NCBI RefSeq assembly: GCF_002309535.1
Contig: NZ_CP023275.1
Location: 806,001-870,000 of the forward strand
Source of the DNA: Sulfurospirillum diekertiae
GTDB lineage: Bacteria > Campylobacterota > Campylobacteria > Campylobacterales > Sulfurospirillaceae
Length of the DNA: 64,000 nt
Direction of reading: 5' to 3'
Part shown: positions 38,691-41,092 of the stretch, piece after piece
How the letters are laid out: each line of letters starts with the position of its first letter
How positions within the stretch are numbered: the first letter of the stretch is position 1
Notes under the pieces: generated by a model
The model's database searches: none
The model's input: only the letters and a program-made list of their open reading frames with translations
What the model was told of the DNA's origin: nothing
Program-made: the position numbers and the translations under genes

Positions 38691-38887
38691 AACGTTCTCC
38701 ATAGGTTTAATGCACAAATATTATATAGAAAATTGAAAGGAAAAAAGGTGATTTTTTATCTTTACATGTAAAGGCGATGCTATTACATTTAACCCATAAA
38801 ATTGAAATAATTTAAAGTAGCTTATCCCCATTTTCTTCTGGTTTCTGGTAGGGGTTTGAATCTCTTCACACCATCCATCTTGTTCCT

Positions 38888-38919
38888 TCAAATCATCTTT
38901 ACATGTAAAGATGATTTGA
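38888..38919. repeat. Perfect 32-bp palindrome built on TTTACATGTAAA
   Basis: Arms TCAAATCATCTTTACA and its complement meet at 38903/38904 with no mismatch. It lies about 40 bp past the stop of the minus-strand UDG-like gene, and may serve as its transcript end, though no T-run follows. It is one of the longest members of the TTACATGTAA family here. Confidence 0.6.
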
Positions 38920-38960
38920 TAAAATTTGACCCATAAAATTAACTCTTGATGGGTAAAAAG

Positions 38961-39632
38961 TTAAAAGTTTAGCCCTGCCCCCTTTTTGTTAGCACTAAAG
39001 ACTTCTTTAAATTTAGATTTATAAAAGTCAATTTTAAATTGTTTTACTGGCTTATCAAATATCCCGTAATATTCATTTTTTACTTGTTTATATATTTTAC
39101 TATTAGATATACCTATATTAGAAGCTCCAGATGGAGAAAGTAAAACTATACATTTGATTACTTTGTTCTCAAATTCTATATGAAACTCATATGTTTTGTT
39201 CCAGTTTTTTGGAACTTGCATCTTTAATTTAAATAAATCAAAAAATAATTTTGCCGCATTGTTTTTGCCAAAAGCACTTGTAAAGAATATTGTTTCTATG
39301 TTCGAATCAAGAATTTGATTTTTTATATCTGTATTTAGTTTGAGATTGTATAGATCACTATCTTTTGTTACTGATTTGTCTTTTCTTTCGCACTCAATAA
39401 CCATATCTGAAATCCCAATGTTGTATTGATTGAATATTTCCAATATGTCATCTAAAGTCTTGAATTTTAGTTCTGTTGCATTTGATAGAATATCCCAAAA
39501 AGTTTTTGCATTTCCATAGAAAAAATCTAATTCAGAATGACCGTGAGGATGTATCGTTCCTAAAACTAAGTACTTATCATTCTTCTTTATCGGATAGTTC
39601 TTTATATACCTATGTTTTGTGATAACTGGCAT
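38961..39632 (-). CDS. Uracil-DNA-glycosylase-superfamily-like protein in a gene cassette
   Basis: The protein of about 223 residues has the layout of the UDG superfamily: YLVLGTIHPHGHSE near residue 20, FFYGNAKTFWDIL as the G(N)-x-FW active-site region and LLSPSGAS near residue 170 as the second catalytic loop. It may be a mismatch or damaged-base glycosylase; distant members exist in defence islands. I start at ATG 39632 after AGAGGT, because the longer frame from 39686 would read through the attC site. The C-terminal codons overlap another GTGCTAAC word. It is AT-rich relative to the core genes. Confidence 0.55.
   Translation of the reverse strand: MPVITKHRYIKNYPIKKNDKYLVLGTIHPHGHSELDFFYGNAKTFWDILSNATELKFKTLDDILEIFNQYNIGISDMVIECERKDKSVTKDSDLYNLKLNTDIKNQILDSNIETIFFTSAFGKNNAAKLFFDLFKLKMQVPKNWNKTYEFHIEFENKVIKCIVLLSPSGASNIGISNSKIYKQVKNEYYGIFDKPVKQFKIDFYKSKFKEVFSANKKGAGLNF
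38971..38995 (-). repeat. Possible remnant of a second attC
   Basis: On the minus strand the end of the UDG-like gene reads GTGCTAAC (38995-38988) then AAAAAGGGGGCAGGGCTAAAC, the same boundary octamer as the complete attC at 39650. No matching GTTAGCAC is found downstream, so if it is an attC it is truncated. Confidence 0.35.
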
Positions 39633-39649
39633 TAATTGACCTCTATAGT

Positions 39650-39706
39650 GTGCTAACGTCTGGTTCAAATGCACCGTAGGTGTCACTTGGAACCACTTGT
39701 TAGCAC
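39650..39706 (-). mobile_element. Integron attC recombination site (57 bp)
   Basis: The outer boxes GTGCTAAC (39650-39657) and GTTAGCAC (39699-39706) are exact complements. Inside, TGGTTC pairs with GAACCA, AA with TT, and TG then CACC with matching GGTG and CA around the loop GTA. The plus strand folds with exactly two extra unpaired bases, T39683 and G39689. This T and G pair of extrahelical bases on the bottom strand, the unpaired spacer GTC/CTT and a length of 57 bp are the defining structure of attC sites. The stop codon of the upstream cassette gene abuts the site at 39707. Confidence 0.8.
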
Positions 39707-40663
39707 CTAGCCCTGATTTAACAAATTAAGCAAATGGTCATATTCTTCCATTTCTATATCTGTAAGAAGCTCTTTTAACTTAACTGTCATTGTTGTTTGA
39801 GTTTCTCGACCATCATGCTTATCTGTATGCTTAACAACGTTCGGAGTGAAGCATTTAATTATGTCAATGAGACCATTGTCATCTGTAATAAAGTTTGATC
39901 TAAGGTACCCACCAACTCCATCACGCCCCAGTTGCTCAATCTCAAGCTTGATACCAGCAAACCTACTTATTAGCATAATATCTGCTAAAGCGTTTTCAGC
40001 ATCAAAATTCTGAGGATCAGCTTTGAATTTCATCAATTTTTTTGCAGCAAGGTTTCCGTAAAGGCACGCAAGACCAATAGTCACAACTGGGTGCTGTCTA
40101 CTAAAATTGAAATGATTTGTTTGTTCGATAATTTTTTCAGCTATCTTTAATCTTTGTTTAGATGATACAGGGTTGCTAAGTTTAAATTGGTCATTTAAAG
40201 CTCTTAAAAAACCTAAATAGTCAGATCGTTTTTCTTCAATTGGATTACCTCGCAATTCCTTAAGAAAGTCCAAAACAAATTCATCAGGTTCATATACACG
40301 AGCATTTGTGAAAAATTTTCTCATAGACACTAGGTCAGATAGTATTTTCTTCTCTAATTCTTCGTCTGTATCAATTCCACGTGAGTCGCTGACCTTCTCC
40401 ATCAACGCAAAAAGATATGAAAAGCAGTTATTAGGTCTATCTAATTCACGAAGATCGTTAACTAGATTAGCTTTTCGAGGGTCATTCTCAAGTGAAGCAC
40501 TTGTGAGTTTTGTCGCACTTACAACACAAATATCTAACATATATAATGTTGGAATACTTAGTGACCACTCCCTCATCATACTGTCTTGTTCTGGTGTAAG
40601 TTGCATTTTAAGTGTTATTGAATCTCCACTAACAAACTCTTTAACAGTATTTTTATTATCCAT
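39707..40663 (-). CDS. Unrecognised cassette-borne protein
   Basis: I do not recognise this 318-residue protein. It is cytoplasmic (no signal or membrane helices), rich in charged residues and mostly helical. Acidic residues in LYMLDICVVSA (near 42), ENALADIMLIS (near 235) and FITDDNGLID (near 268) have the order of a PIN-like nuclease active site, but this is weak. Its stop touches the attC site and its start region is preceded by GTTAGC at 40716-40711, so the gene sits exactly as a cassette would. AAAGGT precedes the ATG. Confidence 0.6.
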   Translation of the reverse strand: MDNKNTVKEFVSGDSITLKMQLTPEQDSMMREWSLSIPTLYMLDICVVSATKLTSASLENDPRKANLVNDLRELDRPNNCFSYLFALMEKVSDSRGIDTDEELEKKILSDLVSMRKFFTNARVYEPDEFVLDFLKELRGNPIEEKRSDYLGFLRALNDQFKLSNPVSSKQRLKIAEKIIEQTNHFNFSRQHPVVTIGLACLYGNLAAKKLMKFKADPQNFDAENALADIMLISRFAGIKLEIEQLGRDGVGGYLRSNFITDDNGLIDIIKCFTPNVVKHTDKHDGRETQTTMTVKLKELLTDIEMEEYDHLLNLLNQG

Positions 40664-41092
40664 TTACTACCTTTTTAAAGTTAACTATAAGCTTACAGAT
40701 TGAGAGGGCTGCTAACTATTTATTCAACGAACATTATATATAAATCAGTCTGTTATTCTCAAATAAACGAACACAAAAAATGTTCGTTTATTTAATAAAA
40801 ATATTTTAAAATGCGATTTTTTTATTGTTTTATAGTCAGAAGCACTTAAATTTTTCAAATATCAATGACCATTTAAAAATATATTTGGCGTTATTTGAAC
40901 ATTTTGTCGTTTAATTGGCAGAAAAAAGTGTTAAATGGTTATTGTGTCGTTTAATGTTTAGGAATTTATATAGAAAGTGAGAGGCTATTTTTTATCTGCC
41001 ATAAACCCATAGAATACTAGCAAATAACGTTACATCACTTTTTTACATGTAAAACCAAAACCCCATAAAATTAAATTTCCAAAACTAAAGTA
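40664..41092. other. Gene-poor spacer between the cassette genes and nap
   Basis: This AT-rich stretch has no credible ORF. It holds the cassette-boundary word GCTAAC (40711-40716), a perfect 13-bp hairpin (AAATAAACGAACA at 40761-40773 with TGTTCGTTTATTT at 40781-40793), two copies of GTCGTTTAAT about 45 bp apart near 40908 and 40951, and one TTACATGTAA at 41043. I see no attI site or integrase. Confidence 0.5.

Follow-up and report, generated by a model that had tools for sequence, protein, structure and literature searches.

An attC site in Sulfurospirillum diekertiae assigned to a chromosomal integron that has lost its integrase gene

In the window, the whole 64-kb stretch of Sulfurospirillum diekertiae DNA analysed here (64,000 nucleotides), lies an integron without an integrase, in which an attI, a promoter, cassette 1, its attC and cassette 2, the attC of which is cut by a REP element, follow one another. 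The 57-nt element at 39650–39706 is, with a probability that we put at about 0.9, the attC of the first cassette of a Sulfurospirillum chromosomal integron that lost its integrase gene, intI. The parts of the locus are as follows, with coordinates given in the window.

39650–39706, gene strand minus: complete attC of cassette 1, 57 nt; the recombinogenic bottom strand is the plus strand, and the crossover G is at 39657
39657–40715, minus strand: gene cassette 1, 1,059 bp, delimited by the crossovers of attI and attC; homologues diverge exactly after G 40716
39707–40663, minus strand: ORF of cassette 1, 318 aa, abutting the attC
38961–39632, minus strand: ORF of cassette 2, 223 aa, with its ATG at 39632 and running to the end of the unit
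38983–38997, minus strand: truncated attC of cassette 2, read by eye, with the R'' box GTGCTAACAA kept and the rest missing
38950–38985, minus strand: REP of the RAYT/IS200-like type, on the cassette strand and abutting the truncated attC of cassette 2
40709–40738, minus strand: putative attI core TATAATGTTCGTTGAATAAATAG^TTAGCAG, crossover after G 40716, called from homology and the sharp boundary after G^TTA
40733–40762, minus strand: candidate Pc, TTGAGA-18-TATAAT, a consensus match only (11 of 12 consensus bases)
40709–40972, minus strand: intI–attI spacer (PintI/attI region), 84–85% identical to the spacers beside intI in genomes G017 and G010
40973–41041, no strand: link between the spacer and the napA side, at the place where an intI would begin; the junction is homologous in four species (the window, G014, G005 and G016)

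Structure of the attC site

On the gene (minus) strand the site reads GTGCTAAC-AAG-TGGTTC-C-AAGTG-A-CACC-TAC-GGTG-CATTT-GAACCA-GAC-GTTAGCAC. The outer R boxes pair over 8 bp (GTGCTAAC/GTTAGCAC) and the L boxes over 6 bp (TGGTTC/GAACCA), forming inverted repeats with the AAC/GTT core, and the central spacers between R and L are unpaired and short, 3+3 nt by reading and 2+2 nt in the MFE structure of the plus strand. Following the L box on the minus strand are an unpaired C, a short helix, an unpaired A and the terminal CACC-TAC-GGTG. Two unpaired bases are located in one arm, and on the plus strand they correspond to T 39683 and to a G that, lying in a GG doublet, may be either 39689 or 39690; the plus-strand MFE structure leaves further bases unpaired besides this T and G. 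The available text of PMC2727003 places the extrahelical bases of attC sites on the R''–L'' arm of the bottom strand, including a G in the L box, an arrangement that T 39683 and G 39689/39690 fit, and names a G directly after the AAC of R' on the bottom strand as a feature of most attC sites, which is present here as well (GTGCTAAC-G). The fold energy has a z-score of −3.92 on the minus strand (77 nt; 0 of 200 shuffles as good) and −4.46 on the plus strand (57 nt; 1 of 200 as good). Directly abutting the element is the stop codon of the preceding ORF, which ends at 39707; the original prediction had placed this stop on the first base of the site, and was right about the adjacency but not about the overlap. 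No Rfam family reached its gathering score anywhere in the 64-kb window.

Such a combination of features was predicted to be unlikely by chance, and simulation agrees: in 89.0 Mb of second-order Markov sequence a single place equalled the site in stem score, two-bulge pattern and 8-bp R boxes, a rate of about 0.03 per genome of the same size. For homology searches we used a covariance model of our own, not that of IntegronFinder, built with the target excluded from 23 attC sites (18 from Campylobacterota and 5 plasmid-borne). These came from stretches around 20 Campylobacterota intI genes and six plasmid integrons; among 397 Campylobacterota genomes, 43 have an intI match at E ≤ 1e-40, 34 of these over the family cut-off. 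Strict and looser Python scans of integron loci missed most real attC sites, and a fold-based scan and the covariance model were used in their place.

The model matches 39650–39706 over its full length at 24.7 bits, above background, which together with the R and L boxes, the spacers and the two bulges T and G bears out its identification as an attC. Covariance scans had been proposed for the window and the genome, and the site is the best match in both, with E = 0.00047 in the window (next match 13.1 bits) and E = 0.02 in the genome (next match 19.5 bits, a score also seen in four congeneric genomes and apparently due to chance). Many congeneric attC sites score 50–69 bits with the same model, against a modest 24.7 for the target, and owing to this difference we place the target in another subfamily. 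A search for intI and additional attC sites, also proposed, returned no intI and no second complete attC: the one complete site detected by the model in the whole genome is accompanied by truncated ones read by eye. By sequence and structure, 39650–39706 is a candidate recombination site for IntI.

A probable integron remnant at napA

About 1 kb upstream of the attC is the putative attI, with the crossover context TATAATGTTCGTTGAATAAATAG^TTAGCAGCCC. This sequence recurs next to an integrase gene in two genomes: in G017, where an intact intI starts 252 bp away, and in G010, where the neighbouring intI is frameshifted. It is for this reason, homology and position, that 40709–40738 is read as attI. 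The spacer of the window is 84% identical over 258 bp to that of G017 and 85% identical over 254 bp to that of G010, both of them beside intI, and where intI-similar sequence is found upstream of an attI, the gene starts 216–274 bp from the crossover. Located within attI and oriented toward the cassettes is the candidate Pc, which ranks first among the 16 promoter-like sites of the scanned stretch (12.3 expected by chance); cassette 1 is probably still transcribed from it. Between the lost intI start and the attI core is a 13-bp perfect inverted repeat, AAATAAACGAACA...TGTTCGTTTATTT (40761–40793), which touches the −35 box of the candidate Pc, is partly conserved beside intI in G017 and G010, and is a possible regulator site.

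Comparison of the locus between alaX and napA across the genus indicates that intI is gone from about its start codon, with the spacer kept. Three other genomes, G014, G005 and G016, share the window sequence from 40713 (40710 in G016) to napA, with unbroken attI-to-napA homology of 81.5–86.7%; the cassettes are not shared. In the alignment, the napA copies of G014 and G005 keep the region of the intI start codon and then switch to sequence common to all four napA copies, and that of G016 has an additional gap in the intI–attI spacer. The four species, which have the same intI-deletion junction, diverge exactly after the attI crossover base G 40716; their first ORFs encode 318, 189, 232 and 1,135 aa, and no pair of the four units has downstream similarity of 60 bp or more. 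On these alignments, intI would have been lost once before the four species separated, or the headless segment would have spread among them. Throughout the window genome, no match to TIGR02249 (intI) lies over the cut-off, nor at E ≤ 1e-15. The original prediction of an attC with no integrase nearby therefore holds for the locus and the genome alike, but it overlooked three things: the attI and promoter that lie about 1 kb upstream, the intI-deletion junction common to the four species, and a further headless attI unit elsewhere in the genome.

The protein of cassette 1 has no family in Pfam, NCBIfam or PADLOC, and shares 74% identity along its full 318 residues with a protein of the Acinetobacter johnsonii plasmid pMRA. 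No attC was found beside the plasmid homologues, and given a homologue on an Acinetobacter plasmid without attC, the gene has crossed phyla and exists outside cassettes. Homologues on Acinetobacter (L306, 4001–4957) and Methylorubrum (L307, 1308–3005) plasmids adjoin a SIR2-family gene, a neighbour that hints at a defence function. DNA of the cassette region has no plasmid match, and in 60 relatives only REP and short matches; viral contigs gave no confirmed match to the attI pattern or the cassette 1 protein. The cassette 2 protein is weakly similar to DNA-deoxyinosine glycosylase (31.6% identity, E = 3e-5), and single-sequence structure predictions for the two cassette proteins were poor (mean pLDDT of 41.0 and 38.4, respectively). 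The 3' end of cassette 2 reads AGTGCTAACAAAAAGGGGGCAGGGCTAAAC, which comprises the R'' half of an attC and, after it, the REP. The retained GTGCTAACAA is identical to the first ten letters of the first attC, and the cassette start, TTAGCAC, is complementary to the R'' remnant, as expected for a cassette's own attC.

Both cassettes would have been inserted by IntI recombining the single-stranded bottom strand of attC with attI, and since the cassettes differ among species with a common deletion, at least some of the insertions are likely to post-date the loss of intI. The enzyme could have been supplied in trans, from elsewhere in the genome or from an incoming element, or could have acted in a donor whose allele was then transferred. 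Lacking IntI, the array would now be immobile unless the integrase is supplied, and cassette 2 would be unable to leave by itself owing to the cut in its attC.

Headless attI units and REP elements in the genus

Allowing up to three mismatches, a 23-mer of attI occurs 34 times in 17 of 24 congeneric genomes, compared with one occurrence of a reversed control pattern. An intact intI is present in 1 of these 24 genomes and a disrupted one in 1 more, and a third has a weak partial match. Of the 33 units examined, 31 have no intI similarity upstream (for two of them less than 600 bp was available), and conservation across the 33 is high through GTTA, dropping at the next position from 1.61 to 0.34 bits. 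Grouped by upstream flank, the 30 units with loci form 13 clusters, or about 11 loci once two pairs are joined by downstream similarity. Locus A, found in 4 genomes, is the napA site; locus B is found in 12 genomes, no two of which have a common first cassette, and is empty and directly joined in G013 and G009. The window genome has units at both loci, its locus-B unit (L213, G000:C1:1701000–1706500) comprising a headless attI, an HNH endonuclease cassette and a truncated attC, with inverted REPs flanking. A simple REP-to-REP insertion was considered for the locus-B unit as a whole and rejected, as the insert there also includes about 100 bp outside the left REP. In G106, of the same species, the space between the locus-B REPs (L293, 2592–6319) is occupied by two inverted, near-identical transposase-like ORFs, presumably IS110-like, and a pentapeptide-repeat-like ORF. 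An apparently empty attI lies between inverted REPs in G007 (C41; L235/L248), with the same downstream flank as the filled G017 unit.

Beyond the genus, an exact-match attI scan covered 84,980 species with one genome apiece and returned 50 stretches. Nearly all of these are labelled Sulfurospirillum, Sulfurimonas, Sulfurovum or other Campylobacterota, and a few, from metagenome bins, are oddly labelled. Similarity to intI is present upstream in 12 of the 50 (two being fragments of at most 33 aa) and absent in 31 with at least 600 bp available upstream; the remaining 7 offer too little sequence. When the whole spacer served as the query of a similarity search, 107 of 397 Campylobacterota genomes had a match at E ≤ 1e-3; among the weaker of these are chance matches that do not end at the crossover.

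The REP that abuts cassette 2 is the terminal repeat of an IS200-like element of the same genome (335348–336179), in which an ORF (L043) matches PF01797 (E = 2e-13) and inverted copies of the same REP flank the gene, at 335348 and 336164; we take this element to be a RAYT. A downstream REP (within 3.5 kb where available) is present in 18 of the 33 attI units, and all 21 such REPs are on the cassette strand, with 0 on the opposite one. Among 32 attC sites scoring at least 30 bits, a same-strand REP follows within 150 bp in 11, an opposite-strand REP in none, counts that are not independent in that many sites are orthologous at locus B, with at least five separate loci represented. No REP lies within 150 bp before any of the 32, and from the 21 REP matches in the 2.8-Mb window genome about 0.02 would be expected per strand near 32 attC sites. 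Upstream of attI, an oppositely oriented REP is found within 110 bp in 9 of the 33 units (two mismatches), eight at locus B and one at another locus, and further degenerate upstream REPs are visible by eye. The six exact REPs of the window genome are the RAYT pair, one after the window array, the pair around the locus-B unit and one elsewhere.

In five units (the window, L213, L226, L237 and L238) REPs were seen by eye to abut truncated attC remnants. At locus B, a similar short A-rich run and a REP come after complete attC sites that differ in sequence. Unit L235 has a REP within 26 bp after attI, so a REP can precede cassette insertion. REPs may have moved the attI platforms, or may simply settle beside them. 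Their strict restriction to one strand at array ends points to a possible connection of HUH (Y1) transposases with attC DNA.

The palindrome TTTACATGTAAA occurs at 26 places in the window, against 0.02 expected (for example 38761–38772, 38898–38909 and 41042–41053). Of the 26 copies, 14 are outside the long ORFs, which together occupy 88% of the window, and a copy is also the joining point of the empty locus B. The palindrome is possibly an uptake sequence, a terminator or a recombination boundary, and a literature search on its core found no relevant title.

Alternative explanations and known systems

Hairpins after stop codons are often terminators and the covariance score is moderate, so that a chance hairpin or a transcription terminator has to be weighed in place of an attC; with one comparable structure in the simulated sequence, no terminator-like match at the position, an attI at the other end of the ORF and a second R'' box after the next ORF, this reading is barely credible. 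Insertion of a lone cassette off target, at a secondary attG-like site and with no integron remnant, would agree with one complete attC and no intI in the genome, and off-target insertion is a published route to CALINs in the available text of PMC8618304. The insertion point, however, is a long attI homologous to the intI-linked attI and not a short attG-like site, and the spacer is kept as far as the region where intI would start; the alignment largely refutes an off-target origin, which we consider highly unlikely. Against our preferred reading, the first cassette of an integron that lost intI, stand the modest covariance score, the short central spacer and the calling of attI from homology and position.

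Much closer to an even chance, although somewhat below it, is that the locus is an integron remnant in which the cassette differences reflect whole attI–cassette swaps, by homologous recombination or transformation with IntI-bearing strains, and not the action of IntI here after its gene was lost. The whole segment 38774–41040, bounded by two TTTACATGTAAA copies, is replaced in G106, of the same species, and the segment between two such palindromes is also replaced in G015; an intact intI in so few of the 24 genomes likewise favours swaps. Yet in four species homology of the flank extends as far as the crossover base itself; a swap would therefore require either breakpoints at exactly that position or import of the whole attI region. 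More speculative, and on balance unlikely, is that the Sulfurospirillum integron came apart, attI–promoter platforms bracketed by inverted RAYT-type REPs having spread to many loci, fed by an integrase in trans, with the REPs fixing the last cassette by cutting its attC. Were this so, the docking half of the integron would exist apart from its recombinase, as a dispersed, MITE-like element.

It is usually by way of the integrase that integrons are looked for and found, and here attI and promoter persist without intI at conserved positions. If IntI acts in trans, or if donors supply ready attI–cassette alleles, most docking sites of the genus would be invisible to integrase-based surveys, and an integron without intI need not be a frozen relic.

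Close to this locus in organization is the integron of Sulfurospirillum sp. UBA2217 (G017:C8, L048), which has the same spacer, attI and GTTA crossover followed by a first cassette, attC and REP, but retains the intact intI. Insertion sequences of the IS1111-attC group are reportedly mobile elements associated with attC; unlike these, the associated element here is the REP of an IS200-like (Y1) RAYT, which lies after the attC and always on the same strand.

Integrons of Campylobacterota, which the original prediction took to be little described, are already listed in PMC8618304, and CALINs in Sulfurovum and Sulfurimonas are tabulated in PMC10295459, in the portions of both sources available. 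The predicted CALIN label is not the best one: like a CALIN the window has an attC without an integrase, but the available text of PMC9024848 gives at least two attC sites as the IntegronFinder 2 default, whereas the genome has one complete attC and the window keeps attI and promoter. As far as the accessible text of PMC12444791 goes, the Xanthomonas integrons at ilvD resemble the window in their ancestral locus, lost or broken intI and retained attC cassettes, with inactivated intI accompanied by frozen arrays; strains with the same intI lesion usually have identical arrays there, whereas here four species have different first cassettes, and that text describes no counterpart of the several headless attI platforms per genome seen here. 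The attI/delta-attI-type cassettes of mobile integrons share with the present units an attI away from its integrase, but in the available text of PMC12901181 the remnants lie downstream of the cassette gene and replace attC, whereas the attI copies here precede the cassette and are dispersed on the chromosome. Open-licence papers, in their accessible parts, on integrons or attC in Sulfurospirillum or Sulfurimonas, or with REP transposases, describe no dispersed headless attI or REP-bounded integrons in the group. Remnant integrons are known; the re-used, REP-associated form is new.
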